48,148 nucleotides of DNA from a virus, in IMG/VR virus record IMGVR_UViG_3300028920_000010, positions 1-48,148 of that record; one strand, written 5' to 3'. The first letter of the stretch is position 1, and the number at the start of each line of letters is the position of its first letter. The position numbers were made by a program, and so were the translations under genes. Under the pieces are notes generated by a model. The model ran no database searches. It was not told where the DNA came from and saw only the letters and a program-made list of their open reading frames with translations. This document shows positions 1-48,148 of this stretch, in pieces.

Positions 1-97
1 CGACTGCATACTCCAACTGAGCGATCAATGCATCACCAGACCACTTGTCTATCAACTTGCTTTCCCGCACAAGCCTCTTGACAGTAGACAAAGGAAT
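1..97. repeat. Terminal direct repeat, left copy (circular overlap)
   Basis: Bases 1-97 are identical to 48052-48148. The repeat cuts one open reading frame that is restored when the ends are joined, so it is most simply the overlap of a circular (or circularly permuted) assembly and not a biological terminal repeat. The unit length is then 48,051 bp. Confidence 0.95.
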
Positions 98-283
98 GGC
101 AGTCTGGCCGTGTTCTACGCCGTTGGCTGACCGTTCCGCCCCAGGCTGGGCCTCGTGACGCTCTATGATATCGGTCAACCTGTTACGCCACTTGACGGCA
201 TCCTCATACGACATATCGATAGTGAACCCGACGTTGATATGCTCAGCTTTGCCGACCCCCGGCGAATGGATATACGTTACCAC
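1..283 (-). CDS. Cassette gene spanning the circle junction (N-terminal part), unknown function
   Basis: GTG start at 283-281 with AGGAGGT five bases upstream. The frame runs off the left edge and continues at 48051-48032, giving a 100-residue protein once the circle is closed. It begins VVTYIHSPGVGKAEHINVGF and ends in VVAQRQS. No family recognised; mid-protein it carries a SANGVE segment encoded by bases resembling a segment inside the gene at 47079-47381. It is one of the array cassettes: its own promoter lies at 306-335 and a short attC-like site follows at 48018-48049. Confidence 0.8.
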   Translation of the reverse strand, partial: MVTYIHSPGVGKAEHINVGFTIDMSYEDAVKWRNRLTDIIERHEAQPGAERSANGVEHGQTAIPLSTVKRLVRESKLIDKWSGDALIAQLEYAV

Positions 284-305
284 TTGTGACCTCCTGGCCC
301 AGCCT

Positions 306-335
306 ACAATATGGTCGCCGAGCTATTGCGTGCAA
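306..335 (-). promoter_or_regulatory. Cassette promoter whose -35 lies in the attC core
   Basis: On the minus strand TTGCAC (335-330) and TATTGT (311-306) are separated by 18 bp. TTGCAC is the downstream core (GTTGCAC) of the preceding attC-like site. The 37 bp at 302-338 are identical to 47990-48026, which sits in front of a different gene. Confidence 0.65.
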
Positions 336-404
336 CGCTCCGGGCACACCCGCTGCGGTACGCCCACCTACTCACCCTCCCGTGGCGGGTTGCCCGTGTT
401 AGGC
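330..404 (-). other. attC-like site, 75 bp
   Basis: Minus strand: GCCTAAC, A, CGGGCA-ACCCGC, a 30-nt terminal region, then GCGGGT, one extra G, TGCCCG, GAGC, GTTGCAC. The two half-stems pair with a single extrahelical base, as integron attC sites do. The left box GCCTAAC fits RYYYAAC exactly. The site overlaps the last codons of the gene at 368-604. Confidence 0.75.
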
Positions 405-604
405 GATTTTGCCGCCGACTCCTTAGCGTACTGAGCGCGTTCTTCAGGTGAATCGATAGTCATGGTATAGCCACAACACTCCGGCCACCCCGACCGGAAA
501 CACTCAGCACTATCTACCTTTTTTGACTTACCGCAAGTACGACACCACACCATTCCTCGAGAAAGCGAGGGGTGGCATTTGGACAACTTATCGTGAATAG
601 ACAT
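368..604 (-). CDS. Small Cys-rich cassette protein, unknown function
   Basis: 78 residues; ATG at 604 preceded by TAGGAGCG. Near residues 22-25 is a CxxC pair (CRTCG) and further on C-x6-CC, a likely zinc-binding arrangement, though the family is not recognised. The C-terminus SPNTGNPPREGE is encoded by the first half of the attC-like hairpin, so the recombination site supplies the end of the protein. Upstream GAACCATTTAGATAGGAG resembles the -10 and RBS region of neighbouring cassettes. Function cannot be inferred beyond possible metal or nucleic-acid binding. Confidence 0.75.
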   Translation of the reverse strand: MSIHDKLSKCHPSLSRGMVWCRTCGKSKKVDSAECFRSGWPECCGYTMTIDSPEERAQYAKESAAKSPNTGNPPREGE

Positions 605-641
605 ACGCGCTCCTATCTAAATGGTTCGGCGGCAATTTCGC

Positions 642-740
642 CTAATGGCTGTTGTGAGATCGTTGAGCAGGGCCTCCATAATGTAAAGCAGGCCCAAGTA
701 CGGACTTGGTTTCAACCGCACCGTTACGGGTTAGGTTCAA
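642..740 (-). CDS. Possible very short cassette ORF
   Basis: About 32 codons from a TTG at 740 (a GTG at 755 abuts the GGAGG at 756-760). It follows a TATGATTATAGG -10-like element and ends next to CTCACAAC-A-GCC, which looks like the left half of an attC-like site. This pattern matches the flanking cassettes, but start choice is poor and the coding signal weak. Apart from this, 605-800 holds only leader sequence. Confidence 0.3.
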   Translation of the reverse strand: MNLTRNGAVETKSVLGPALHYGGPAQRSHNSH

Positions 741-804
741 GTGAGAGCTACCCACCCTCCAGCCTGAAAGCCTGCCTATAATCATAAAAGCCCTGCTCTA
801 TGTC

Positions 805-838
805 TCACAACGCAGGCGCTACGGATGCCGTGTTTCGA
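805..838 (-). other. Short attC-like site, 34 bp
   Basis: Minus strand: ..GAAAC, A, CGG-CAT-CCG, TAGCGCCTGC, GTTGTGA. It keeps the AAC and GTT borders and the GTAGC string found in the other short sites (47067, 48018), but has almost no stem. It may be a deletion derivative of a long site. Confidence 0.4.
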
Positions 839-1088
839 GTGACCGCATAGGGGCTTCCATTGACTCGGACATGGCATTCCTGGCGCTGTTGTGCGATGTG
901 AGCCAGTCCACATATTTTGCTTTCGGCTGGCCGGGCACAAGCGATATACTCACCTTGACAGGACGGTCGCTTGACCACCCGAACGCATAGATATACTCCT
1001 GTGCCTCCCGGCGCGTACCGAACAGAAACGGAACCTTGTCGTCTCCCTCGTCAAGCGACCCATCCCGACACTGGATAGCCCACAACAT
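819..1088 (-). CDS. Cassette protein, unknown function
   Basis: 89 residues from the ATG at 1088, chosen over the upstream in-frame codon because GGAGG lies six bases before it. The product begins MLWAIQCRDGSLDEGDDKVP and has a FGTRREAQEYIYAFG segment, reminiscent of small phage proteins that adjust arguments of tables or displays but not assignable. The stop lies inside the short attC-like site at 805-838. Upstream is GTTGTGC...CATTGT, a core site and -10 with 19 bp spacing. Confidence 0.75.
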   Translation of the reverse strand: MLWAIQCRDGSLDEGDDKVPFLFGTRREAQEYIYAFGWSSDRPVKVSISLVPGQPKAKYVDWLTSHNSARNAMSESMEAPMRSLETRHP

Positions 1089-1143
1089 GATTACCTCCAA
1101 TCTTAGGCCAGCCGAACTACAATGCTCAAGACTGGCTCATTTT

Positions 1144-1218
1144 GCACAACGCTCCGGGCACACCCGCTGCGGTACACCCCGTTACTCACTCTCCCGTGGC
1201 GGGTTGCCCGTGTTGTGC
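1144..1218 (-). other. attC-like site, 75 bp, fully paired core boxes
   Basis: GCACAAC, A, CGGGCA-ACCCGC ... GCGGGT, extra G, TGCCCG, GAGC, GTTGTGC on the minus strand. The outer boxes GCACAAC/GTTGTGC are perfectly complementary. Stem sequence is the same as at 330-404, but the loop and flanks differ. Confidence 0.78.
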
Positions 1219-1533
1219 GTTGTCCGAATCCGCATCCTTAGAGCACACCAGCATGATCCGCTTTTCTTTCGGAATCAACGCGAGGATGTCACCAAATGTT
1301 GGTTTGGGACGCCGCCCTTCGTATTCAGCAATAAGGCCATCGCGGAATGCGAACTCGTGGGTCCACACGGAACGACCAAGCACCTTTTCCATTGCCAACT
1401 GAAAGCGCGAGAATGGTAGCGCCAACCGGTCTTGATACAACTGAAATCGAACAACGTCCTCATCTGTCCAATCTTTCCACTCGCCACCATCATAGATAGC
1501 GATGGCCTGTTCTTTCGTTATCTGTTCCACCAC
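1186..1533 (-). CDS. Cassette protein, second gene of a two-gene cassette
   Basis: 115 residues; GTG start at 1533 (GTG at 1530 also possible) overlapping the end of the preceding gene by 16 nt, implying translational coupling. It begins with VEQITKEQAIAIYDGGEWKD and ends DNAQHGQPATGE; the last ten residues are encoded by the left arm of the attC-like site. Mostly hydrophilic, no family recognised. It shares its promoter with the gene at 1518-1730, making this one of two clear two-gene cassettes. Confidence 0.75.
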   Translation of the reverse strand: MVEQITKEQAIAIYDGGEWKDWTDEDVVRFQLYQDRLALPFSRFQLAMEKVLGRSVWTHEFAFRDGLIAEYEGRRPKPTFGDILALIPKEKRIMLVCSKDADSDNAQHGQPATGE

Positions 1534-1730
1534 TCTACCTTAGCTTTCAGAGCACGCCGCCTTTGGGCAGTGGCCTTGTTATTTCGAGTGGCGCGAATCA
1601 CCACGTACTTTCCTTTGACCTCGAACTCGAAATCGTGAACGAGCCCGCAGTCGCAACATGCAATCCTGTGTATCTGTTCGCGCCAAGGCACGAGGATGGG
1701 CTCACCGTCTATTCTCTGCGTGTACCTCAA
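1518..1730 (-). CDS. Cassette protein with CCxC motif
   Basis: 70 residues from a TTG start at 1730 with AGGAG six bases upstream and TTATAGG overlapping the RBS, as in other cassettes. Contains ACCDCGLVHDFEF near residue 24 and a basic C-terminus (RNNKATAQRRRALKAK), consistent with a small metal- and nucleic-acid-binding protein, by inference only. Co-transcribed and overlapping with the gene at 1186-1533. Confidence 0.7.
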   Translation of the reverse strand: MRYTQRIDGEPILVPWREQIHRIACCDCGLVHDFEFEVKGKYVVIRATRNNKATAQRRRALKAKVEWWNR

Positions 1731-1767
1731 GGCGTGCTCCTATAAGTCAAATGATTCACAAGATTGC

Positions 1768-1842
1768 AGCCAACGTTCGCGCTACACCTGCTGCGCCTGG
1801 CCCCCTGCTACATTGACAAGTGGCAGGTTGGCGCTGTTGGTT
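1768..1842 (-). other. attC-like site inside a 109-bp exact repeat (copy A)
   Basis: Minus strand: AACCAAC, A, GCGC-CA-ACCTGC ... GCAGGT-GTA-GCGC, GAAC, GTTGGCT. Bases 1772-1880 are identical to 45812-45920 although the genes upstream differ. Identity stops exactly at the GTT on the downstream side, the position at which attC recombination would exchange partners. Confidence 0.75.
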
Positions 1843-1879
1843 GTTGTATGCGACCGCTCCACCAGTTTAGCGAACGGGT

Positions 1880-2011
1880 TCACACGCACTCGCCATGATA
1901 CGACAACTGACGCTGGCACTCCTCATACGTGCCGGTGTAGATACAATGGTCGTAGATGTACGCGCTGTATGAGCCATCACCATTACGAACGATACGAACT
2001 GACTTTTGCAT
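1880..2011 (-). CDS. Small cassette protein, 43 aa
   Basis: ATG at 2011 with GGAGGTTATC before it; too short for usual ORF cut-offs but well supported by leader and position. Product starts MQKSVRIVRNGDGSYSAYIY and ends QLSYHGECV, a compact beta-rich-looking peptide of unknown role. The leader through CTCACTGGAGGTTATC and the downstream 109 bp are shared with the cassette at 45919-46056, which carries an unrelated gene. Confidence 0.75.
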   Translation of the reverse strand: MQKSVRIVRNGDGSYSAYIYDHCIYTGTYEECQRQLSYHGECV

Positions 2012-2033
2012 GATAACCTCCAGTGAGCGATTT

Positions 2034-2063
2034 ACAAAATGGTCGGTCGCATAGTGCAACCAA
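2034..2063 (-). promoter_or_regulatory. Cassette promoter
   Basis: TTGGTT (2063-2058) and TTTTGT (2039-2034) with an 18-bp spacer on the minus strand. TTGGTT is part of the core site GTTGGTT ending the previous cassette; the upstream arm of that attC is not recognisable. The GCGACCGACCA spacer end is shared with 46079-46108. Confidence 0.6.
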
Positions 2064-2065
2064 CG

Positions 2066-2326
2066 TTAACCCAAGCAGAAGTGCCGCCATAACTTCGCAT
2101 GGCAAAGGTGACTCCCGTATGATTCTACACACACTTGTCCGATATGAAGAACACACTCCGAACACGATGGCGGCATTTGCGCAGCGGACTGCTTGGGTGT
2201 GTTGGGTGCCGTGGAGGGAGCTTCCGCCAGTAAAGGCGCGACATCCGACCACTTACACCATGTGCCAGTTTCTGACTCCAGCCATCCACCGTTACTTTTA
2301 CTGTGATACCGTTTCAGTCGCGCCAT
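2066..2326 (-). CDS. Cys-rich cassette protein
   Basis: 86 residues; ATG at 2326 after GGGGG. Contains MPPSCSECV near residue 54 and three further cysteines (C, C, C in the last 25 residues), a possible zinc site. The linker APSTAPNT is encoded by GGCACCCAACA, a string that recurs inside the genes at 42967-43245 and 46752-47027 and matches an AAC-A core half-site. No -10 element is obvious in front. Family not recognised. Confidence 0.7.
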   Translation of the reverse strand: MARLKRYHSKSNGGWLESETGTWCKWSDVAPLLAEAPSTAPNTPKQSAAQMPPSCSECVLHIGQVCVESYGSHLCHAKLWRHFCLG

Positions 2327-2352
2327 ACAAACCCCCAGATCCCGGAATGGCA

Positions 2353-2427
2353 TCCCAACGTTGGGGCACACCGGATGCGGTACACCCATCACTTTACTTT
2401 AGCCGTTTCCGGTTGCCCGTGTTGTGC
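2353..2427 (-). other. attC-like site with covarying stem
   Basis: GCACAAC, A, CGGGCA-ACCGGA ... TCCGGT, extra G, TGCCC, then GTTGGGA on the minus strand. Compared with 330-404 the inner stem ACCCGC/GCGGGT has become ACCGGA/TCCGGT, so both arms changed together. This is direct evidence that the fold is under selection. Confidence 0.8.
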
Positions 2428-2610
2428 GATGTAGGCTGGCGACTCCTTAATTTGCTGGAGAATTGCCGGGGCATCATCGACCACCTTGCAATCAAACTCT
2501 GCATCATAAGGACATTGTGATGTCACCAACCCATATAGGTTGAGGCCATGCGCGTGCTTCAGGCAACCGCCGCACGCCTGAGCAATAGGACACTGTTCAT
2601 CGGTTGACAT
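2389..2610 (-). CDS. Cassette protein with Cys motif CxxxxxCxxC
   Basis: 73 residues; ATG at 2610 with GGGAG eight bases upstream (a TTG two codons earlier is less likely). Starts MSTDEQCPIAQACGGCLKHA, a C-x5-C-x2-C arrangement. C-terminus AQHGQPETAKVK is encoded within the attC-like hairpin. TTGTGC...TATTGTAGGG lies upstream with a 20-bp spacer. Function unknown. Confidence 0.75.
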   Translation of the reverse strand: MSTDEQCPIAQACGGCLKHAHGLNLYGLVTSQCPYDAEFDCKVVDDAPAILQQIKESPAYIAQHGQPETAKVK

Positions 2611-2650
2611 AGGCAATTCTCCCTACAATAAAAATTCGCCAGACTATTTT

Positions 2651-2661
2651 GCACAACGTTC
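2651..2661 (-). other. Half attC-like site
   Basis: Minus strand GAAC-GTTGTGC: the 4-nt spacer and core of an attC-like site remain directly after the gene at 2660-2908, but no matching left half was found. Probably a decayed site still serving as the -35 of the next cassette. Confidence 0.4.
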
Positions 2662-2908
2662 ACCGCACAGCCGGTAGTTTGCCCGACCCACCGCAATAAA
2701 CACAATCTTTGGTCGAAGGAGCATACACTTGATCACTCGCGCCAGTACCGTCGCACCGAGGGCAAATTTCGGCTTGCGGTTGTTGGCTGGCGGAGCGAAC
2801 TGTAGCCGGGGACTCCCCTAATGCCGCGCAAATCTGATCGAGACGCGCAATATCACGGCCATAATCACAGACCTTGCGTAAATACTCAATTGCTTCGTGT
2901 TCAGTCAT
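2660..2908 (-). CDS. First cassette gene; DnaJ-type zinc-ribbon protein
   Basis: 82 residues; ATG at 2908 with GGAGG five bases upstream. The N-terminus is helical (TEHEAIEYLRKVCDYGRDIA). The C-terminal half has CPRCDGTG and CVYCGGSG, the CxxCxGxG pair typical of DnaJ-like zinc ribbons, common in small phage proteins. It is the cassette nearest the putative insertion point at 2941-2947, which in integrons would be the most recently gained position. Confidence 0.8.
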   Translation of the reverse strand: MTEHEAIEYLRKVCDYGRDIARLDQICAALGESPATVRSASQQPQAEICPRCDGTGASDQVYAPSTKDCVYCGGSGKLPAVR

Positions 2909-2916
2909 TTGCGCCT

Positions 2917-2946
2917 CCAAAATGGTTCCCCGGCTATTGCAGCCAA
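2917..2946 (-). promoter_or_regulatory. Promoter of the first cassette
   Basis: TTGGCT (2946-2941) and TTTTGG (2922-2917) with an 18-bp spacer on the minus strand, overlapping the GGAGG of the gene at 2660-2908. Weak -10, but the spacing is exactly that of five other cassettes. Confidence 0.45.
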
Positions 2947-2947
2947 C
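2941..2947 (-). other. Array start: attI-like junction
   Basis: GTTGGCT on the minus strand. Its G is the last base of the TAG stop of the phage gene at 2947-3195, and no attC-like hairpin lies upstream. The array therefore begins at a lone GTTRRRY-type core, as at an integron attI or a secondary target. Confidence 0.4.
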
Positions 2948-3195
2948 TACCCCTTACCCGTCAAGACCCCCCGCAACCGTCGAATTCTCAGTGCGCTATC
3001 GTCGGGCAGCCAGGACACGTCTTTGCGCATCCTGATCAGCACCATCCACATCAATGTCTCGATTGTCTCACTGCGTGTCTGGCCTGCATCGGCACCGATG
3101 GTTGCAATGAGCCCCAGCGTTGCCTCATGTGCGTACCCGCGATAAGGGAGACGTGTCCGGTTTCGTGCCCGATGTATCGCGTTGTGATCAACCAT
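2947..3195 (-). CDS. Unknown protein, last gene before the cassette array
   Basis: 82 residues from an ATG at 3195, overlapping the previous stop by 8 nt, with GAGG nine bases upstream. Includes HEATLGLIATIGADAGQTRS and a basic tail (RIRRLRGVLTGKG). No family recognised. Its stop codon abuts the GTTGGCT core where the cassette array starts, so an original longer C-terminus may have been lost. Confidence 0.6.
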   Translation of the reverse strand: MVDHNAIHRARNRTRLPYRGYAHEATLGLIATIGADAGQTRSETIETLMWMVLIRMRKDVSWLPDDSALRIRRLRGVLTGKG

Positions 3196-37754: not shown

Positions 37755-39300
37755 CTTCCTCGTCCGTGTTGCCCTGCGCCTGCTCCTTCGTACGATCCAG
37801 ACCGAGCGTCTTCAGTTCCTCTTCCTCGTCCGAAATCTGACGCAGCTCCTCACGCCAATCGGCACCGTAACGCTCTGCGTAGAACCGCTCCAAACTCAGC
37901 ATTCGATTGTTGACCAATGCGATGTTGGCATTGGCGTCCTTCAGCGGGTCGACCCAATCCCAGCCGTCCGTGCGCCACATTGCCCGATTGTAGTGCCATG
38001 GGTCGCGCATGTAGTCGTTCATCCCCGCGCTGCCCATGTGCCCTTCGAGGAACATGCGCCCCACGAAGTAGTCCCACTCCCACTGCAGGCACGTCTCTAT
38101 GAAAAAAGCCTGAATCACGCGGTAGATACGCCGGTCCTCGATCGTGTTCCCGCGCATGGAGGAGAAAGACATATCCCCGGTGTCGCGCGTGAATGTCTGG
38201 TAGCTGTGACCCATGCTTGCGCCGATGCCCTGCAGCATGAGCTTCTGGAGGGGGTTCAGGACATCCTTGACGTTCTGGGACGTCGATATTACTTCCGGCT
38301 TGCCGGACTTGGGGTCATACTGCCAGACCTTCCCCGGCTCCCACTCCACGTTATCATTGGTATTGCGGTTGTTGCGGATCAGATTGCCAGCGATCGCATT
38401 CGGGACCAGCAACATCACCATGTTCTGGATACGGGACGCAACGATCGTGTCCTTCATAAGCTGTTCGTTGCCCCAAAGGAATTTCAGCGCCTGTGTGTAC
38501 CACGAGTTGCCAAGATACTGCTCGCTGGAGTCCTCCCGGTACGATGCGTGCATGACCGTTGCGGACACTGGCCGCTTGACCCCCTGGATCCAGTAGCTCA
38601 CCGGAGCCCCGTTCTCGTCGATGTTGACCCCGAAGACAGTCTGACTCCCCTTGAGACCTTCCTCCAAGCTTATGTCATCCCGGTCGTGGGAGTCGTCGAG
38701 CCGGAGGAGGTGGACGACCTGCGACTGCACCCCGAGGTAATTCTCCCGGGGGGCACGGACCTTGTTGGTCAGGCACGTTCCCGTCTTCATGATCTCCGAC
38801 AGCATCAGCCGCTGCTTGCCGACGAACGACGCTCCCTGCTTCGCGTCCCACTGGTCGTTGTATCGCTTCCAGCCCTCCTCCAGCGCCTTGTTGACGCCCT
38901 CGACCGACTTGCCGTCCTTCGTCTGGACATTGGGCCGGGGTCGGATACCGGTACCGATCACGTTGCCGAGGATCGATGTTTGTAGCCCCGCTGCATGCGG
39001 ATAGTTGTCGATTGCTTTGATTGCCCGCGCGACGATTGTCTTCCAGGAGTCCCGCAGGTTGTCGTAGTGAGTGCCGTAGTTCGTGCTCCAGTCGCCGTGC
39101 AACCGGTCGGTGCTCGCCGAATCGTAATGAGCGGAGAACATGCCGGTAACATCGGTGAGATAGGAAGCGATACGGCGCCTGTACTCCGCCCAATGTTCGA
39201 CGTGCTGCATCCGGTACGCCTGGGGCCAGAGCCGCTTAGACACGCTGTAAAGCGCCTGTCCAGCCCGATGGGCGTGTTTCTCCCACCACGCCCCGGTCAT
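37714..39300 (-). CDS. Portal protein, lambda family
   Basis: 528 residues. ARAIKAIDNYPHAAGLQTSI and GNVIGTGIRPRPNVQT near 110-140, CLTNKVRAPRENYLG, and the C-terminal WRTDGWDWVDPLKDANANIA are classic lambda gpB-type motifs. Forms the dodecameric DNA channel. Overlaps gpW-like gene by 4 nt. Confidence 0.93.
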   Translation of the reverse strand: MTGAWWEKHAHRAGQALYSVSKRLWPQAYRMQHVEHWAEYRRRIASYLTDVTGMFSAHYDSASTDRLHGDWSTNYGTHYDNLRDSWKTIVARAIKAIDNYPHAAGLQTSILGNVIGTGIRPRPNVQTKDGKSVEGVNKALEEGWKRYNDQWDAKQGASFVGKQRLMLSEIMKTGTCLTNKVRAPRENYLGVQSQVVHLLRLDDSHDRDDISLEEGLKGSQTVFGVNIDENGAPVSYWIQGVKRPVSATVMHASYREDSSEQYLGNSWYTQALKFLWGNEQLMKDTIVASRIQNMVMLLVPNAIAGNLIRNNRNTNDNVEWEPGKVWQYDPKSGKPEVISTSQNVKDVLNPLQKLMLQGIGASMGHSYQTFTRDTGDMSFSSMRGNTIEDRRIYRVIQAFFIETCLQWEWDYFVGRMFLEGHMGSAGMNDYMRDPWHYNRAMWRTDGWDWVDPLKDANANIALVNNRMLSLERFYAERYGADWREELRQISDEEEELKTLGLDRTKEQAQGNTDEEDEQKERDERAARG

Positions 39301-42415: not shown

Positions 42416-42441
42416 CTGTTGTGTGCTGGAACAGGAGCCTC
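42416..42441 (-). other. Broken attC-like end at distal border of array
   Basis: 26 bp matching 45061-45086 at 25 positions, including the AAC-A left core and 20 bp of adjacent cassette sequence, but with no hairpin behind it. 42272-42415 has no gene or clear promoter. This marks where the array stops before the terminase genes. Confidence 0.45.
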
Positions 42442-42456
42442 TTTCAGCGGTGCCGG

Positions 42457-42702
42457 CTACGTGCGCAGTCTGCGGCCACACCGAGCACAGTATTGACACC
42501 CGTTTTCGATCTGAATTTCTACATCCGCAGTATCACAGCACCATGAGCAAGATGCGGTGGGGAAAGCTATCCTCAATCTGCGACGGTGGCACTCCGCGAG
42601 CAGCACCCCCATGAGAGACCGCAGGAAACGACCGGCAGTCGTATTCTGGTACATGAGATGCACCATCCCGACAATCGCCTTGCCCGTCAGCCAGCCAACC
42701 AT
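42457..42702 (-). CDS. Last cassette gene; membrane/zinc-ribbon-like protein
   Basis: 81 residues from ATG at 42702 (AGGA nine bases upstream; ATG at 42732 is an alternative). The N-terminus GWLTGKAIVGMVHLMYQN is amphipathic to hydrophobic, then CSWCC and CQYCARCGRRLRT form a probable zinc ribbon. AATAATAGGA upstream resembles the cassette -10. Confidence 0.65.
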   Translation of the reverse strand: MVGWLTGKAIVGMVHLMYQNTTAGRFLRSLMGVLLAECHRRRLRIAFPTASCSWCCDTADVEIQIENGCQYCARCGRRLRT

Positions 42703-42736
42703 CGTAGCTCGTCCTATTATTCTCTTGCGCATTTGC

Positions 42737-42946
42737 TTAGTCGAGAGAATCCATGAAGTCGGCCAACTGCCTGAGACAGTCGGCCGTCATGTAGGTATCG
42801 GACTCGAACTTCGCAGCCCTTGTCAACTCTCTGCCGAAACGGACCTTGTGAATGCTCCCCAATTCGTCCTCCTTTGCGTAGAACCAATGACTGAGGGTAG
42901 GGAACATCGCCAGGATTGACGGATCCGTTTCGCTGTAAAATTCCAT
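42737..42946 (-). CDS. Cassette protein, unknown
   Basis: 69 residues. MEFYSETDPSILAMFPTLSH and FESDTYMTADCLRQLADFMD; helical, acidic, single cysteine. The RBS is poor. Preceded by a degenerate short attC-like site at 42954-42984. Confidence 0.6.
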   Translation of the reverse strand: MEFYSETDPSILAMFPTLSHWFYAKEDELGSIHKVRFGRELTRAAKFESDTYMTADCLRQLADFMDSLD

Positions 42947-42953
42947 GAGGGAG

Positions 42954-42984
42954 CCTACCGGTCCGGCTACGTGCGCTGTTTCCG
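42954..42984 (-). other. Degenerate short attC-like site
   Basis: Minus GGAAAC, AGCGCACGTAGCCGGAC, CGGTAGG. It carries the CGTAGCCGGAC string seen at 46738-46769 and about 42450, but the GTT core is lost. Confidence 0.3.
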
Positions 42985-43245
42985 CACTACGGACTCGAAA
43001 TTATTCAACATTTCCTGGAGCGCTACATATTCGCCCCAATGTGGATCGTCTTCGGTGATTCGCGTGTCCGCCGGTGGTCGCCACAAGTCCTTTATACGAA
43101 GCGCTCCTTCTATTGCGGAAATGGCGTCACTGGCCGTGTTGGGTGCCGTGCTTTCGACCTTAGATCGGGAGGCGCATGGCGCAAAGGCACTTGGATAATG
43201 TATGTGACAATACCGTCGAATCAAACAATCCTTACAAGGCATCAT
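42967..43245 (-). CDS. Cassette protein with Cys cluster
   Basis: 92 residues; ATG at 43245 behind GATTATAGGGAGGCGCG, a combined -10 and RBS. MMPCKDCLIRRYCHIHYPSA gives C-x2-C-x6-C-x-H, a possible zinc finger, then linker VESTAPNTASDA and a helical C-terminal part. The linker DNA matches internal segments in two other cassette genes. Confidence 0.72.
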   Translation of the reverse strand: MMPCKDCLIRRYCHIHYPSAFAPCASRSKVESTAPNTASDAISAIEGALRIKDLWRPPADTRITEDDPHWGEYVALQEMLNNFESVVRKQRT

Positions 43246-43278
43246 TTCGCGCCTCCCTATAATCAACTGAGCATGGTA

Positions 43279-43312
43279 TCCCAACGCTTCGCGGCAGTAT
43301 GCTGTACCGCCT
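43279..43312 (-). other. Degenerate attC-like site after the radical SAM cassette
   Basis: Minus: a GCGG/CCGC stem, GAAGC, GTTGGGA. The left box is poor. The right core and following ATACCAT resemble the cassette starts at 2353, 47067 and 47678. Confidence 0.35.
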
Positions 43313-43321
43313 ATAGTAAAG

Positions 43322-44680
43322 TTATTCCTTAGTGTCCAGCGGTATTGCATACTGCCGATGTTGGCCGATGTTCTGGCCTGTTCCATAGTGTTCTGCGGGC
43401 GGTTCCGCGCACAGGACGTGCGCTCTTGATTTTGGTATTTTGCAGTATGACTCAAGATTGCTTTCCATGCGCAACCACCCAAAGACATGCATGTCTATAT
43501 AATCAGACATCACCTTTACCTTTTCAGATGCCGGATACTTAGCACATTTCTTGATTATTTTTGTCAATTGTGCACCACTGATGCCGCGATTAATTAACAC
43601 CCTTTTTGCCAAAGTAAATCCGCTGTTAATTTGTGGCAAAACGAACGCCTCTATTTTTTTGCCCTTGTAAACTTGCCTGCCAATGCGCTCAAATATTCCA
43701 CGTGTGTCTACTGTAACGTTTGCTGGGTAATCGGCCATCGGTGTAAGCGGCTCCGGAGAAAACGGAGTTACCAAAAACATAATGAGTATTCTTGTTCCTG
43801 ACTCTGCATCGACTGACGCAAGTAATTTTGAGGTAGTCGCAATATCGGCTGTCAGGCTTGCTTCAGTTTCCCACGGATACCATACAATGTTGAATATCTT
43901 GAGATTGACAACTGACGAAAAATTACTTGCCATGATCCCGGTCAGCTTGTCGTGTATTTGCACATCCATTATGTGCTTGTTGACTGCAATCCTTGTTTGC
44001 TCTGACCATCCATCCCATGCGGTTGTATATCTACCGGGCTTAGTAACCGCAAGACCGCTCCAATCTTCTTCTGGTGTAACCAAATCTGAGCCGTGAGAGT
44101 ATCCCGCCCCAGTTGTGACATGTTTTCGAGTCCATGTGTATTGACAAAAAAAACACTTTTTGCGACAACCAACAGCGCATTCGCCACCGACAAAATACTG
44201 ATGCTGTCGCAACTGGTATCTCCCAGACATGTACGGGTCAATTTCTTTCCGCCACACATTATCTGGTGTTGCGCCATCAATTATGTCGTTGATTTGCCCC
44301 TCAGCCCGGCCAAAAACAGCCACGTCAACAATATTAATTATCGGATAAATAGACAAGCATCCCTGCCCGCCCGCAATAACCGTGCAGGAGCCCTTGTGTT
44401 CAGGACGTATCTGCAACGCGGATTGCTCAACATCTGAAATTGACGTGAGAGACAATAGACACACGGAGTAGTCCTTAATACGGTCTACCGTGACATACTC
44501 GTATTGATACCTTAGCTCAGACAATATGGCATTCATCCCGTTTGCCGCAAAAGAAATGTTGCGGTTTTTCGCATGATTGCCGCCAGACAGACAAATAACT
44601 CCGACAATAACAGACTGGTCTCTGAACAAGTTGTACTGTTGTTCTCGTGGCTTGTATGTTTTTGCCTCTTGCTTGTTCAT
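43322..44680 (-). CDS. B12-binding-type radical SAM protein in a cassette
   Basis: 452 residues, by far the largest cassette gene. The N-terminal 20-135 resembles the B12-binding lead-in (VIVGVICLSGGNHAK; IAGGQGCLSIYP; DVAVFGRAEGQINDII). C172-x3-C176-x2-C179 (GCRKKCFFCQ) is the 4Fe-4S motif, with an extra C168. Base composition is visibly more AT-rich than in the phage genes, suggesting recent arrival. Reaction unknown. ATG is 2 nt after the previous stop, so translation is probably coupled. Confidence 0.8.
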   Translation of the reverse strand: MNKQEAKTYKPREQQYNLFRDQSVIVGVICLSGGNHAKNRNISFAANGMNAILSELRYQYEYVTVDRIKDYSVCLLSLTSISDVEQSALQIRPEHKGSCTVIAGGQGCLSIYPIINIVDVAVFGRAEGQINDIIDGATPDNVWRKEIDPYMSGRYQLRQHQYFVGGECAVGCRKKCFFCQYTWTRKHVTTGAGYSHGSDLVTPEEDWSGLAVTKPGRYTTAWDGWSEQTRIAVNKHIMDVQIHDKLTGIMASNFSSVVNLKIFNIVWYPWETEASLTADIATTSKLLASVDAESGTRILIMFLVTPFSPEPLTPMADYPANVTVDTRGIFERIGRQVYKGKKIEAFVLPQINSGFTLAKRVLINRGISGAQLTKIIKKCAKYPASEKVKVMSDYIDMHVFGWLRMESNLESYCKIPKSRAHVLCAEPPAEHYGTGQNIGQHRQYAIPLDTKE

Positions 44681-44682
44681 TG

Positions 44683-44856
44683 TTACCAGCGCTTGTTTGC
44701 AGGACGGCGTGTCTTTTTTTCCTTGTACAAATCCGACGGCATTGATGGCTCGTTATCAGTACCGCAGATATTGCACACACGAAATCCTCGACGATAATGT
44801 GACCCGCACTTTGCGCACGGATCGTTGACTTGTATCACTTTTTGCTTTTCTTGCAT
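44683..44856 (-). CDS. Zinc-ribbon protein coupled to the radical SAM gene
   Basis: 57 residues, ATG at 44856 with GGGGAG eight bases upstream. DPCAKCGSHYRRGFRVCNIC GT is a two-CxxC zinc ribbon; the rest is basic. It forms a two-gene cassette with the radical SAM gene and could be its partner. Confidence 0.72.
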   Translation of the reverse strand: MQEKQKVIQVNDPCAKCGSHYRRGFRVCNICGTDNEPSMPSDLYKEKKTRRPANKRW

Positions 44857-44904
44857 TTGTATTTCTCCCCGGCGCACGACGCGCCGTCTTGGTTTTCCGC
44901 CCGC

Positions 44905-45174
44905 CTATAATATCTGGTTTTCAGGCCAGAATTTCAGCCAACGCTCGGCCAACGGTAGCCTGTGGGGAGTGTCGCCGACTACCACGCGAGACGGCGACGG
45001 GCTAATTGGGGGTCGAAACCCCTCCGGCGTGGAACCACTACTCCCCATGGCTACCTTGGCCTGTTGTGAGCTGGAACAGGAGCCTCCGCAAGTAAAGCGC
45101 GGTGAACCGTCGGCGGGGGAGACCCTTTGGCAGCGTTTCCGGGGGCCCGCCTTCGGAATCGAGCGAGCTACCAT
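44905..45174 (-). CDS. ORF running through an attC-like site
   Basis: 89 codons, MVARSIPKAGPRKRCQRVSP.. to the TAG at 44905, passing through the whole attC-like element at 44936-45069 without a stop. Upstream TATTGT is 20 bp from a TTGTGA core. Pro/Ser/Arg-rich composition makes it doubtful; the real product may be shorter or absent. Confidence 0.35.
   Translation of the reverse strand: MVARSIPKAGPRKRCQRVSPADGSPRFTCGGSCSSSQQAKVAMGSSGSTPEGFRPPISPSPSRVVVGDTPHRLPLAERWLKFWPENQIL
44936..45069 (-). other. Long attC-like site with pseudoknot potential (copy A)
   Basis: 134 bp. Minus strand: ..ACAAC, A, GGCCAA-GGTAGCC, a 70-nt terminal region, GGCTACC, extra bases, TTGGCC, GAGC, GTTGGCT. Inside are GGGGAGT/ACTCCCC, a GGGGT-TTCG-ACCCC hairpin, and CCACGC/GCGTGG interleaved with GTCGCC/GGCGAC, i.e. 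a pseudoknot. Bases 44939-45067 match 46429-46557 with one difference. Confidence 0.75.
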
Positions 45175-45227
45175 TCGGAATCTATCTCTTTAACCGCGCT
45201 CACAATACGAAAGCTCCTGTTCTGGCA

Positions 45228-45261
45228 TCACAACGGTTCGGCCCACGCACGCCGTGCCTAC
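45228..45261 (-). other. Degenerate short attC-like site
   Basis: Minus: A-CGGC, CGTGCGTGGG loop, GCCG region, AACC, GTTGTGA. A short CGGC/GCCG stem and one good core (GTTGTGA); the left AAC is changed. Confidence 0.35.
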
Positions 45262-45500
45262 ACCCCGCTTTCCCAACATGCAGGACATGTTCTAACGTGT
45301 ATAAAGGCCTCACCAGTGTATCCACAGTTCGCGCATGGCGTGCTGGGCTTGTTGGTGGATGCGGGCTTCGGCTCAATTTTTCGGAGCGCGGCAAGGCACT
45401 CCTCCTCTGTGGCGAACCTGTCAAGAATAGGTCCACACCATTGCCCTCTCCACGTACCGTCTATCTCTTGCAGAATGAACGGACCAACTCGTTTCCTCAT
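45258..45500 (-). CDS. Zinc-ribbon-like cassette protein
   Basis: 80 residues; ATG at 45500 after TAGGAGCGCTAC. A beta-rich first half (RVGPFILQEIDGTWRGQWCG), then a helix, then CANCGYTGEAFIHVRTCPAC, a clear two-CxxC zinc ribbon. The promoter with 18-bp spacing is at 45512-45541. Confidence 0.75.
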   Translation of the reverse strand: MRKRVGPFILQEIDGTWRGQWCGPILDRFATEEECLAALRKIEPKPASTNKPSTPCANCGYTGEAFIHVRTCPACWESGV

Positions 45501-45511
45501 GTAGCGCTCCT

Positions 45512-45541
45512 ATGATATGGCCCGAAGGCCGTTTCCACCAA
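45512..45541 (-). promoter_or_regulatory. Cassette promoter
   Basis: TTGGTG (45541-45536) in the attC core and TATCAT (45517-45512), 18 bp apart on the minus strand. Confidence 0.6.
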
Positions 45542-45610
45542 CGTCCCGGGCACCACCCGCTGCGGTACACTCACGTATCACCCTCCCGTGGCGGGTTGCC
45601 CGTGTTAGGC
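45536..45610 (-). other. attC-like site, 75 bp
   Basis: GCCTAAC, A, CGGGCA-ACCCGC ... GCGGGT, extra GG, TGCCCG, GGAC, GTTGGTG on the minus strand. Same stem as at 330-404 with a different 4-nt spacer and loop. Confidence 0.76.
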
Positions 45611-45802
45611 GATGCGTGGCGACTCTCCATAGTCAATGGCACCCCGTAGGTAATCATCCTCCCACCGCATGATTTTTGAGCGATAGTAGCACGTCCGTTG
45701 GTGGTGCCTTTCGATAATACACTGGTCATCGTATAGACGCTCCGTGTCGAGGTCGTCGAGGTCGCGTTCATATGGGTGCCATACAAATCCAGAAGTCGCC
45801 AC
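45605..45802 (-). CDS. Cassette protein, no RBS visible
   Basis: 65 residues from GTG at 45802, just 5 nt after the GTTAGGC core, so possibly leaderless. WHPYERDLDDLDTERLYDDQ and CIIERHHQRTCYYRSKIMRW look protein-like; the TAA stop is inside the GCCTAAC box. An alternative frame ends SPNTGNPPREGDT like the gene at 368-604 but has poorer composition. Confidence 0.5.
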   Translation of the reverse strand: MATSGFVWHPYERDLDDLDTERLYDDQCIIERHHQRTCYYRSKIMRWEDDYLRGAIDYGESPRIA

Positions 45803-45807
45803 GTTTT

Positions 45808-45882
45808 GCCTAACGTTCGCGCTACACCTGCTGCGCCTGGCCCCCTGCTACATTGACAAGTGGCAGGTTGGCGCTGTTGGTT
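45808..45882 (-). other. attC-like site, exact repeat (copy B)
   Basis: Same element as 1768-1842 with the downstream core GTTAGGC, a perfect GTTRRRY. The exact repeat is 45812-45920 and ends at the GTT. Confidence 0.78.
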
Positions 45883-45918
45883 GTTGTATGCGACCGCTCC
45901 ACCAGTTTAGCGAACGGG

Positions 45919-46056
45919 TTATCGCGCATCACTTTTGCAACGGAATGAACGCGAATACCAAATCGGAATACCGACGAAAAGAATAAGCCGGTTTTCCCAC
46001 GTATACTTGTAGATACCCTTCTTGCTCTCGGACAGCCAAAACAGTTTCGTTAACAT
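45919..46056 (-). CDS. Small cassette protein, 45 aa
   Basis: ATG at 46056 behind GGAGGTTATC. MLTKLFWLSESKKGIYKYTW then LILFVGIPIWYSRSFRC: a short hydrophobic stretch with basic ends, perhaps membrane-associated. Both flanks are shared with the cassette at 1880-2011, but the gene is unrelated. Confidence 0.68.
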   Translation of the reverse strand: MLTKLFWLSESKKGIYKYTWENRLILFVGIPIWYSRSFRCKSDAR

Positions 46057-46076
46057 GATAACCTCCAGTGAGCGGT

Positions 46077-46379
46077 TTATAATATGGTCGGTCGCATATT
46101 GCAACCAACCAACGTCCGCCGCACCGTGCGATGCGGTACGCTCACTTGCCACCCTTTGCCCGTTTTGCACTGCGGCTGTTGTGGGATGTAACTCCCACTT
46201 TCCACCAGTTCATAGGAGCCGTACACGCCCATCGCTTCGAGGCGTGCCACGATACACGACCCGCAAAGCAGACCAGCCCCCACGGCTTTACCAGACGGCT
46301 GGATGCGCTCCCAAATTTCGTCTGGCACGCCTATATCAATACGGTACTGATTTCCGCATCCCTGGCATTTACACGACAT
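46077..46379 (-). CDS. Phage zinc-binding cassette protein
   Basis: 100 residues; ATG at 46379 with AAAGGAG upstream. MSCKCQGCGNQYRIDIGVPD, IWERIQPSGKAVGAGLLCGS C and LEAMGVYGSYELVE form a recognisable small phage protein type with C-x-C-x2-C plus CGSC metal ligands. The C-terminal third is encoded by the attC-like site and by the next cassette's leader, so the tail differs from that of relatives; inference. Confidence 0.78.
   Translation of the reverse strand: MSCKCQGCGNQYRIDIGVPDEIWERIQPSGKAVGAGLLCGSCIVARLEAMGVYGSYELVESGSYIPQQPQCKTGKGWQVSVPHRTVRRTLVGCNMRPTIL
46079..46108 (-). promoter_or_regulatory. Cassette promoter
   Basis: TTGGTT (46108-46103) and TATTAT (46084-46079), 18-bp spacer, minus strand. 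The sequence duplicates the core (GTTGGTTGGTT), keeping the 18-bp distance. Confidence 0.65.
46107..46184 (-). other. attC-like site with different covarying stem
   Basis: CCACAAC, A, GCCGCA-GTGC ... GCAC, extra GG, TGCGGC, GGAC, GTTGGTT on the minus strand. Both stem halves differ from 330-404 yet pair perfectly; the loop keeps GTACCGCA. Confidence 0.78.
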
Positions 46380-46425
46380 AGCTTCAACGGCTCCTTTACA
46401 ACAATTCTCAAAAGGGACGCATGGC

Positions 46426-46559
46426 GCACAACGCTCGGCCAACGGTAGCCTGTGGGGAGTATCGCCGACTACCACGCGAGACGGCGACGGGCTAATTGGG
46501 GGTCGAAACCCCTCCGGCGTGGAACCACTACTCCCCATGGCTACCTTGGCCTGTTGTAC
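46426..46559 (-). other. Long attC-like site with pseudoknot potential (copy B)
   Basis: As 44936-45069, with the downstream core GTTGTGC. The only difference in 129 bp is plus A at 46461 versus G at 44971; on the minus-strand RNA or DNA this turns a G-C pair into G-T/U, whereas on the plus strand it would make A-C. Confidence 0.76.
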
Positions 46560-46692
46560 GACGTGTCAAGTTCCCTCCACACGTTGGCGAGGTGTCGGTG
46601 ATGATGCACATGGCCGGGACACTGTACGTATAGGTAGGCCGAAGCCTCTCATCCTTAGCACCCCTGGTTGCCCGATCATTTCTCACGTACAC
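46528..46692 (-). CDS. Cassette protein, 54 aa
   Basis: GTG at 46692 with GAGGTGG eight bases before and TATTGTAGG upstream. VYVRNDRATRGAKDERLRPT then YTYSVPAMCIITDTSPTCGG. The last residues (TGQGSHGE) are encoded in the attC-like site. Unknown function. Confidence 0.6.
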   Translation of the reverse strand: MYVRNDRATRGAKDERLRPTYTYSVPAMCIITDTSPTCGGNLTRRTTGQGSHGE

Positions 46693-46737
46693 CAAAGCGC
46701 CCACCTCGCCTACAATATGAAAGGAACTTGACATGTT

Positions 46738-46769
46738 GTACAAAGTCCAGGCTACGTGCGAAGTCGCGC
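46738..46769 (-). other. Degenerate short attC-like site
   Basis: Minus GCGCGAC, 18 nt with CGTAGCC, TTTGTAC. Layout equals 48018-48049, but both cores have one change. Confidence 0.35.
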
Positions 46770-47027
46770 TATGACTGCATTGAGCCTGTGTAACTCCAAC
46801 GAACCATCGAAGTCGGGATGCTTTTCGAGCGACATACGAATGTGCTCAAGATCCAAAGCGATTTCCGCACTGGCCGCGTTGGGTGCCGTGGAGGTCGCTT
46901 CCGCCAGTTTGGAGGCGCAGTCCTTACATAGCACGCGCATGTACCCCACTCGATCATAATTCACTTCGGCATCATAAAACACCTTGCACCCACACTCGTC
47001 ACATGAGTAATATTCACCTGCGGCCAT
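46752..47027 (-). CDS. Zinc-ribbon cassette protein with helical tail
   Basis: 91 residues; ATG at 47027 after AGGAGGCGCAAG. AAGEYYSCDECGCKVFYDAE and MRVLCKDCASKL form a two-CxxC zinc ribbon. The linker ATSTAPNAAS is encoded by GGCACCCAAC, then a helical domain ends AVIARLRT. The linker DNA, shared with two other cassette genes, may mark an old fusion point. Confidence 0.75.
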   Translation of the reverse strand: MAAGEYYSCDECGCKVFYDAEVNYDRVGYMRVLCKDCASKLAEATSTAPNAASAEIALDLEHIRMSLEKHPDFDGSLELHRLNAVIARLRT

Positions 47028-47066
47028 CTTGCGCCTCCTCAGTATTCAAGAGCGACCGGAATGGCA

Positions 47067-47099
47067 TCCCAACGTCCGCTACATAGACGCCCGTTGCGC
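47067..47099 (-). other. Short attC-like site, 33 bp
   Basis: Minus GCGCAAC, 19 nt (GGGCGTCTATGTAGCGGAC), GTTGGGA. Good cores and a weak stem; the following ATGCCATTCC is shared with the cassette start at 2353. Confidence 0.45.
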
Positions 47100-47381
47100 T
47101 ACCTTGACAAGCAACTCATCCAATTGGTCCCACTCCTCTTGGTCCAGCCACTCAGCACTGTTTTGTACGAGAGCAATGGCGGCTTGTAGCTGTTCTACGC
47201 CGTTGGCCGGTGATTCCTTAGATTTGGAGGCGCATTGGGCACATGCCGCGCGAATGGCCGCACCAGTGACGGGTCCGCGTTCATTCGCAAATGCCTCGAC
47301 GTTCACCAGAGCACCCGACCCATTGCCAGACTGAAAACGTAACCACAACCCATCCTCTTTCTTGACTACCGATACACTCAC
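47079..47381 (-). CDS. Cassette protein, unknown
   Basis: 100 residues; GTG at 47381 with GGAGG upstream. N-terminal beta (SVSVVKKEDGLWLRFQSGNG), a CAQCAS pair near residue 47, the linker ESPANGVEQLQ, and an acidic helical C-terminus (SAEWLDQEEWDQLDELLVKV). The C-terminal codons lie in the short attC-like site. Confidence 0.72.
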   Translation of the reverse strand: MSVSVVKKEDGLWLRFQSGNGSGALVNVEAFANERGPVTGAAIRAACAQCASKSKESPANGVEQLQAAIALVQNSAEWLDQEEWDQLDELLVKVAQRASM

Positions 47382-47401
47382 TCGCGCCTCCTCAGTATAT
47401 G

Positions 47402-47436
47402 GTTCACCGGACTATGGCGTAGAACGGTTGTTGGGT
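47402..47436 (-). other. Degenerate attC-like site
   Basis: Minus ACCCAAC, A, ACCG, 15-nt loop, CGGT, GAAC, then CAT instead of GTT. Left core and stem kept, right core lost. Confidence 0.35.
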
Positions 47437-47461
47437 GCTGTTTAACCCGCTTCCATATTTT

Positions 47462-47632
47462 TCAGCGCACCGCGTATTTCGTTTGAGAATACATATAGTC
47501 CTGAAAATCAGAATAAGACACGCAACGCCCAGCCATAAAATCATCGAACGACACTTTGGCATCTTCGAGAAACCGAGCGTACAAATCACGCAAAGCATGT
47601 TTGTTTTCTTGTGACCATTTTGCTACGTTCAT
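47462..47632 (-). CDS. Small cassette protein, 56 aa
   Basis: ATG at 47632 with CCGGAGG upstream and AAATTATAGGC, a clear cassette -10. MNVAKWSQENKHALRDLYAR and SFDDFMAGRCVSYSDFQDYM; helical and aromatic-rich. Lower GC than its neighbours. Unknown function. Confidence 0.72.
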   Translation of the reverse strand: MNVAKWSQENKHALRDLYARFLEDAKVSFDDFMAGRCVSYSDFQDYMYSQTKYAVR

Positions 47633-47677
47633 ATTTTCCTCCGGTGCGCCTATAATTTCAAGGCGGGTTAAATGGCA

Positions 47678-47710
47678 TCCCAACGTTCAGCCAATGTGCG
47701 CACGTTTGGC
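47678..47710 (-). other. Short attC-like site, 33 bp
   Basis: Minus GCCAAAC, a GTGCGCAC palindrome, ATTGGCTGAAC, GTTGGGA. Two good borders and the usual length of the short class. Confidence 0.4.
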
Positions 47711-47974
47711 ACACCTTGGCGGTGAATCAAGTTGCCCACACTCAGGCAAAAGCGGACAGTCGAAACACAAATCTGACTCACCGTTGACAAATTGCGCACT
47801 TGGCTTGTTGCACGGCGAAGCGGACTGTAGATCGGCGCTCCCATGCTCCTGCCGGGCGGCGTGTACCAACTGATGCGGGACTGGGCACGAACACATCCAC
47901 ACGGTGGCCAATGCTTTACCTCCAGCAATGAGATGCTGTTTGTGCAACTCACCATGACAATCTGGGCACTTCAT
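47687..47974 (-). CDS. Cys-rich cassette protein
   Basis: 95 residues; ATG at 47974 after GGGAGGATGT. MKCPDCHGELHKQHLIAGGK and VWMCSCPVPHQL resemble a small zinc ribbon; further on DLCFDCPLLPECG gives another Cys set. Metal binding likely, function unknown. Confidence 0.75.
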   Translation of the reverse strand: MKCPDCHGELHKQHLIAGGKALATVWMCSCPVPHQLVHAARQEHGSADLQSASPCNKPSAQFVNGESDLCFDCPLLPECGQLDSPPRCAKRAHIG

Positions 47975-47989
47975 ACATCCTCCCGCCCG

Positions 47990-48026
47990 GCCTACAATAT
48001 GGTCGCCGAGCTATTGCGTGCAACGC
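47990..48026 (-). repeat. 37-bp leader repeat
   Basis: Identical to 302-338. On the minus strand it starts at the GTTGCAC core and runs to TATTGTAGGC, so two different cassettes begin with the same promoter segment. Confidence 0.9.
47994..48023 (-). promoter_or_regulatory. Cassette promoter
   Basis: TTGCAC (48023-48018) and TATTGT (47999-47994) with 18 bp between, minus strand. Confidence 0.65.
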
Positions 48027-48049
48027 CCCGGCTATGACTGCCGTTGCGC
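48018..48049 (-). other. Short attC-like site, 32 bp
   Basis: Minus GCGCAAC, GGC-AGTCATA-GCC, GGGGC, GTTGCAC. A three-base stem between two good cores. Confidence 0.45.
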
Positions 48050-48148
48050 TACGACTGCATACTCCAACTGAGCGATCAATGCATCACCAGACCACTTGTC
48101 TATCAACTTGCTTTCCCGCACAAGCCTCTTGACAGTAGACAAAGGAAT
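48032..48148 (-). CDS. Cassette gene spanning the circle junction (C-terminal part)
   Basis: The same gene as at 1-283, seen here from the TAG at 48032 into the terminal overlap. The last residues (VVAQRQS) lie in the short attC-like site. Confidence 0.8.
   Translation of the reverse strand: MPLSTVKRLVRESKLIDKWSGDALIAQLEYAVVAQRQS
48052..48148. repeat. Terminal direct repeat, right copy
   Basis: Exact copy of 1-97; see the left copy. Confidence 0.95.

Follow-up and report, generated by a model that had tools for sequence, protein, structure and literature searches.

The question raised by this locus is whether a region of small genes and hairpin-forming repeats in a phage genome is a mobile gene-cassette array and, if so, how it relates to integrons, the textbook device for gene trading among bacteria. 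The region lies in a viral record of IMG/VR (IMGVR_UViG_3300028920_000010), the whole 48,148 nucleotides of which were analysed and are called the window here. The record has an exact direct repeat of 97 nt at its two ends (1-97 and 48052-48148) and is therefore circular or terminally redundant. It encodes a gpA-type large terminase, a lambda-type portal, a capsid/protease, a tape measure protein, RusA, DnaB, and a DnaD-like helicase loader, with nearly all likely genes on the minus strand. The best matches of the terminase among sequenced phages are about 20-25 % identical. Genes for GT8 and GT9 glycosyltransferases, a methyltransferase, and radical-SAM proteins are found among the tail-side genes at 15.7-22 kb. 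The region of interest is located between the early genes and terS-terL and runs from 2947 across the junction of the record to about 42416 (Table 1).

The original prediction for this DNA had described nine long copies of a repeat with a fixed layout on the minus strand, and all nine were verified. Read in the coding direction, each consists of NNNNAAC, a single A, a 6-bp arm, a second stem with its loop, a bulge of 1-2 nt, the other half of the 6-bp arm, 4-5 nt, and GTTNNNN. A covariance model (R2) was made from 14 sites of other phages only (alignment A5), with no site of the window included. In A5, pairing extends to 93.9 % of the stem cells (70 % in shuffles, at most 34 % with the stem slid), and changes on both sides were seen in eight of nine stem pairs, a covariation count that leans towards structure because the sites were picked by eye with the layout in mind. 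The search of the window with R2 is not biased in the same way, because the window sites are absent from the model. With filters off, it returned 15 sites with E ≤ 1.1e-3, none of which lies outside the array or on the plus strand; the best match elsewhere in the window had an E value of 0.17. All nine long copies are among the 15 (E = 2.5e-8 to 9.5e-4), together with six additional sites (E ≤ 1.1e-3), and two weaker sites were also obtained. Of the claim of about 22 cassettes on the minus strand, the strand was thus borne out and the number came near, with 17 sites by the model and about 20-21 cassettes by hand-counted borders.

The consensus NNNYAAC and GTTRNRY gives the best description of the boxes in 49 sites from five arrays; AAC and GTT are nearly invariant, and the boxes resemble RYYYAAC/GTTRRRY. 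The bulge is on the L' arm, and the spacers measure 1 and 4-5 nt. Like sites were also found behind different genes, as had been claimed: the bodies that start at 44939 and 46429 are 99 % identical over 129 nt, and those at 333 and 1147 and at 1771 and 45811 form two further families. Both copies of the 129-nt body fold far better than shuffles (z -5.1) and both follow non-coding cassettes; this body is tRNA-like at first sight, a reading that was rejected when ARAGORN found no tRNA. The cassette end ACAGTYCG...AAC recurs behind different genes at the 3' ends 47807 and 2782 of the window and in the related contigs L097, L200, L208, L257, and L259. An Rfam scan of the window and exact-pattern scans for its site bodies in IMG/VR gave no match.

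The gene units are themselves bracketed by inverted repeats, a feature that the original prediction did not contain. A cassette opens with GTT and an arm and closes with AAC, which is preceded by the matching arm; typically there are 7 bp, a 4-nt internal loop, and about 10 bp. Twelve matched-end units with a score of at least 12 were found in the 8.6-kb array, against none in the other 40 kb. In five arrays, the two ends of the same cassette score at least 10 in 26 of 44 cassettes, compared with 9 of 426 cross pairs of ends from different cassettes; several low own-end scores go back to a site missed by R2, with two cassettes counted as one, or to chimeric units. A cassette of a true integron takes its start from the end of its own circular attC, and in the real integron cassettes of reference loci the own ends match over 12-19 nt. 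The simplest reading of the matched ends in the phage array would be that circularisation brings the two cassette ends together and thereby lengthens the hairpin.

Table 1. Array borders, hairpin sites and matched-end units in the window (long copy, one of the nine originally predicted; additional, site added by R2)
Feature	Position	Strand	Evidence and remarks
Array, right part	42416..48051	- (coding direction)	R2 sites and matched-end units restricted to region; runs on into 1-2947
Array, left part	1..2947	-	R2 sites and matched-end units
Array upstream border	2945..2955	-	coding strand ...GGGGTA, border, GTT; window sequence
Hairpin site, body family A (long copy)	330..404	-	R2 E=3.8e-8
Hairpin site, body family A (long copy)	1144..1218	-	R2 E=2.5e-8
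Hairpin site, body family A (long copy)	45536..45610	-	R2 E=6.3e-4
Hairpin site, related to body family A (long copy)	2353..2427	-	R2 E=9.5e-4
Hairpin site, body family B (long copy)	1768..1842	-	R2 E=7.2e-7
Hairpin site, body family B (long copy)	45808..45882	-	R2 E=9.2e-7
Hairpin site, body family C, 129 nt (long copy)	44936..45069 (body 44939-45067)	-	R2 E=1.8e-5; repeat
Hairpin site, body family C, 129 nt (long copy)	46426..46559 (body 46429-46557)	-	R2 E=5.7e-7; repeat
Hairpin site (long copy)	46107..46184	-	R2 E=1.5e-6
Hairpin site (additional)	805..894	-	R2 E=8.8e-7
Hairpin site, long loop (additional)	2651..2788	-	R2 E=1.9e-6
Hairpin site, long partly coding loop (additional)	42953..43144	-	R2 E=1.1e-3
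Hairpin site (additional)	43279..43366	-	R2 E=6.7e-6
Hairpin site, long loop containing gene end (additional)	45228..45357	-	R2 E=1.6e-5
Hairpin site, long loop (additional)	47678..47813	-	R2 E=6.1e-8
Weaker hairpin site	47067..47198	-	R2 E=0.068
Weaker hairpin site	46738..46884	-	R2 E=0.44
Matched-end unit (GTTGTGC-4 nt-TGAGCCAGTC)	888..1150	-	score 15
Matched-end unit	1836..2064	-	score 15; both ends and site body common to 45876-46109
Matched-end unit	2421..2657	-	score 14
Matched-end unit	45351..45542	-	score 15
Matched-end unit (GTTAGGC)	45604..45814	-	score 15.5
Matched-end unit	45876..46109	-	score 15
Matched-end unit	46878..47073	-	score 12.5
Matched-end unit	47192..47425	-	score 16
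Matched-end unit	47430..47684	-	score 15.5
Largest cassette unit, 1583 nt, weak radical-SAM-like gene, matched ends	43359..44941	-	score 15; Pfam weak
Matched-end unit without convincing gene (non-coding cassette)	651..811	-	score 16.5
Matched-end unit without convincing gene (non-coding cassette)	45063..45234	-	score 15.5
Matched-end unit without convincing gene (non-coding cassette)	46554..46743	-	inverted repeat; score 16

Relatives were sought in IMG/VR. Single-protein scans with TerL and with the capsid protein found none; an alignment of distant TerL sequences gave the first ones, and a closer alignment gave many more. Arrays are located upstream of terS-terL in L097, L184, and L200 (terminases 46.6-47.4 % identical to that of the window), in L201 and L202 (35.8 %), and in L208 (34.9 %), and array sites are also present in the further contigs L257, L258, and L259. 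In the relatives searched, R2 gave 47 matches at E ≤ 1. A match in an EBPR podovirus was set aside as a homologous gene with no array. Window and L097 have collinear structural genes, with amino-acid identities of 28-55 %; for their cassettes and early genes no comparable match was obtained, and no homologous early gene was found at E < 1e-4. The leading border of the array, GTA directly before GTT, was observed in four phages (the window, L200, L097, as seen in L250, and L201), each with a different first cassette, and this border is a candidate for an attI-like entry point.

One species is represented by three strains, L097, L184, and L200, which come from three metagenomes and are 96-100 % identical at the nucleotide level in their shared parts. 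The content, number, and order of the cassettes in their arrays, as given by metagenome assemblies, differ. The unit ending in ...GGGCGTGCGGTGAAC-GTT has AGGTGCC behind it in L097, GGGCGAA in L200, and GTATGC in L184; another, starting with GTTGTGCACAATG, comes after another hairpin in L097 and stands at the border of the array in L200. Three different successors were seen for a third unit, which is present in L097, L200, and L201; the L201 copy of this unit is 95 % identical to that of L200, whereas the terminase of L201 is 40 % identical to that of L097. As GTT begins at only 1.6-1.9 % of the coding-strand positions in the strain arrays, chance does not account for the agreement of the strain borders with GTT; a single border was found 4 nt ahead of it. 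Assembly artefacts are a lesser concern for the recurrence of one unit in several contexts and samples than for cassette order. Blocks common to the relatives begin or end at the GTT after a hairpin, from which it follows that the moving unit is a gene with the hairpin behind it. Gain, loss, and reordering of cassettes with borders at GTT, the changes looked for in the original prediction, were thus seen in relatives, the borders at GTT both among strains and between phages.

These changes bear on the explanation that the repeats are DNA or RNA structures only, the pairing of which serves transcripts or replication, and that slippage or template switching at hairpins sharing a short AACGTT changes the region. 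Such a reading would account for the strength of the hairpins and for the ACGTT or AACGTT sequence common to many junctions. It is nevertheless very unlikely, as slippage gives loss and not gain, reordering, or whole-unit exchange between distant phages, and the near invariance of GTT and AAC in the 49 sites goes beyond what pairing needs.

Precise exchange was also observed in cultured phages of Polaribacter. The isolates Danklef_5 (L090) and Danklef_4 (L092) differ by the exact gain or loss of one methyltransferase unit at about 37850-38600, which lies between TAAC and TAAC and has flanks that are 99.8 and 99.9 % identical. P12002L (L086) and P12002S (L088) carry arrays at about 29-31 kb and 36.7-41.7 kb. 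Of their junctions at 37.3, 39.2, and 39.7 kb, two fall at GTT and one falls in a hairpin stem; near 47.4 kb the two phages differ again, away from any GTT border. These two arrays contain more matched-end units than the two P12002L attC sites tested in the literature, in an AT-rich background in which single weak units are uncertain. The Polaribacter arrays are like that of the window in their matched-end units and in the precise gain or loss of units between nearly identical isolates. In contrast, their moving unit is a hairpin with the gene downstream of it; relative to the site, the gene thus points the other way than in the window family, and R2 finds none of their sites.

The window sites had been taken for attC sites. 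Two attC covariance models, R1 and a broader R3 built from 47 attCs, were run on both strands with filters off, and neither gave a significant match in the window (best E = 5, with R3) or in the array-bearing relatives (best E = 0.089, with R3). As no long site was recognised, the identification as attC in the accepted sense could not be upheld. R1 does recover the attCs in integron loci and in the phage TJE1 but misses an experimentally active phage attC, attC2 of P12002L, and the failure of the attC models here accordingly shows a different class of site and not a loss of function. R2, in turn, yielded no convincing match when run on 437 kb of integrons and other phages, and no sites in 398 bacterial genomes of one phylum, searched with strict filters and without a positive control. 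In canonical attC sites, the extrahelical base is on the L'' arm, and an unpaired spacer of about 5-6 nt is found on both sides; the window sites carry their bulge on the opposite arm and have other linkers. A canonical attC on the opposite strand, suggested by the side of the bulge, was considered and rejected: both kinds of model had been run on both strands, without either recognising the other class of site, and the strain borders put the moving hairpin behind the gene.

By definition, a CALIN needs no integrase. Attention was drawn to such attC clusters lacking integrase in phages by Qi et al. (2023), who described them in the Tetrasphaera phage TJE1, the Polaribacter phage P12002L, and the Pseudoalteromonas phage PH101, and who found IntI1 activity for five of the six phage attC sites tested (PMC9892861). 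With that report on virulent phages, the original statement that no described case was known does not stand. Phage arrays of canonical attC are already published, and the site class found here is distinct; no published description of it was found in the open-licence literature. The phage CALINs and the window have in common cassette-like genes between hairpin sites, the absence of an integrase, AAC/GTT boxes, and an expected exchange between the G and TT of GTT. Unlike the window sites, those of TJE1 fit the canonical attC model, and the example shown for TJE1 has three attCs, as opposed to about 20 units with 15-17 model matches. Recombination in the phage CALINs was assayed with IntI1, whereas in the window family shuffling was seen at the strain level and the bulge is on the other arm. 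Bacterial integrons, both class 1 and chromosomal, resemble the window array in having a gene followed by its site, one direction, borders between G and TT, matched ends, and a fixed leading border; the window array differs from them in that no intI was found in it, its sites are missed by attC models, its end matching is longer (7 bp, loop, and 10 bp), and its attI is only putative.

The array might, in spite of these differences, be an ordinary integron-derived one, in which host cassettes were captured by the phage as a CALIN and the attC sites diverged beyond the models used. The known phage CALINs with sites active with IntI1 (PMC9892861) give this reading some weight, as do the RYYYAAC/GTTRRRY-like boxes, and the models are not exhaustive, as the P12002L attC2 missed by R1 illustrates. 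We consider it unlikely, albeit far from negligible, since the two site classes fail to recognise each other in either direction and on either strand, and since a layout that is consistent across several phages, with the bulge on the other arm and linkers of A and 4-5 nt, is unlike random decay.

An integron integrase had been predicted to be absent, and the window indeed contains no match to TIGR02249 or PF00589; a search of the window for a tyrosine recombinase, a serine resolvase, and a Y1 transposase found none. A partial Y1 transposase match below the cut-off (E = 4.6e-6) is located at 4051-4143 of G011 (IMGVR_UViG_3300044802_000094), about 1 kb from array sites; the other array-bearing records have no such match. 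Because no recombinase was found in the window and no early gene is shared with L097, the enzyme working on the sites is probably supplied in trans. A unit would then leave in circular form, with its two ends brought together so that the hairpin is lengthened into a long attC-like stem. The single-strand structure could be cut and joined between G and TT by the recombinase in trans, most likely a host integron-type tyrosine recombinase, and new units may enter at the leading border or at other sites. Alternatively, the sites may belong to a phage-specific cassette system that follows the logic of integrons and is worked by an unrelated structure-specific recombinase of phage or host. The distinct and consistent site class points in this direction, as do the fixed locus in one virus lineage and the lack of R2 sites in the 398 bacterial genomes of one phylum, a search that had no positive control. 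Against it stand the absence of known recombinase families from the window and the lack of a homologue common to the window and L097 outside the structural genes. Such a system is regarded as possible, at rather less than even confidence.

The cargo of the window array consists mostly of small proteins without known function; one cassette encodes a weak radical-SAM-like protein, and in three units no convincing gene was recognised. The cargo of the relatives includes MT-A70, Dam, C5, and N6/N4 DNA methyltransferases, which suggests escape from host restriction; judged from these enzymes, part of the cargo would serve counter-defence. Six non-coding units, those of the window and one each in L097 (1943-2104), L200 (6571-6743), and L257 (3913-4062), have a long closing stem and an alike 3' end around ...TGGAGG; their interiors are not clearly alike, and only some of the six fold clearly better than shuffles. 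They are possibly small-RNA cassettes. Of 57 cassettes, 19 have a TATAG element at a distance of 24-34 nt behind GTT, where 2.8 would be expected; the element differs from the consensus sigma-70 promoter. The idea of a sigma-70 promoter in every cassette was abandoned, as promoter scans stayed at the shuffle level with no excess; the same result was obtained in a scan of the arrays for intrinsic terminators.

The TATAG element and the repeated stem-loops between small phage genes would also be compatible with mobile regulatory cassettes made up of a promoter and a stem-loop, between which genes are shuffled by homologous recombination. In PMC4503421, Arbiol 2010 and Comeau 2014 are cited for such PeSL elements, to which gene shuffling in T4-like phages is ascribed; they likewise form repeated stem-loops between small variable phage genes. 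The window differs from them in the lack of an excess of sigma-70 promoters or intrinsic terminators, in exchange at a 3-nt GTT border beside unrelated sequence and not inside the repeated body, and in the gene-specific matched ends, which PeSLs do not predict. An explanation of this kind is improbable and already disfavoured.

In conclusion, the region is probably an array of mobile gene cassettes that functions in the manner of an integron's cassette part. The 15 array sites on one strand, the stem covariation, the matching of own ends (seen in real integron cassettes too), the strain borders at GTT, the 95 %-identical unit across 40 %-identical terminases, the exact unit change between Danklef_5 and Danklef_4, and the fixed locus with its GTA border were counted for this conclusion; the misses of the attC models, the opposite bulge, the negative R2 search of the 398 bacterial genomes, the dependence of the strain evidence on metagenome assemblies, and the two borders off GTT (one 4 nt before GTT and one in the P12002S stem) were counted against it. 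The array works like an integron cassette array without being a demonstrated member of the integrons. A bolder version, advanced here with more doubt than confidence, is that cassette capture is owned by the phages: a mirror-image class of attC hairpin with an added outer arm would be worked by a recombinase other than the known integron integrases and used by a virus lineage for trading anti-defence genes and small non-coding units.

If it is true that the array has its own site class, about 20 cassettes, and a fixed locus, phages would possess a layer of gene trading that is invisible to attC-based searches, and the R2 covariance model provides a means for others to look for such arrays. The array would help to explain how small accessory genes are swapped precisely by phages. 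The missing enzyme would then be a target for direct search: if it is not provided by host integrons that serve the phage, there is a structure-specific recombinase yet to be described.
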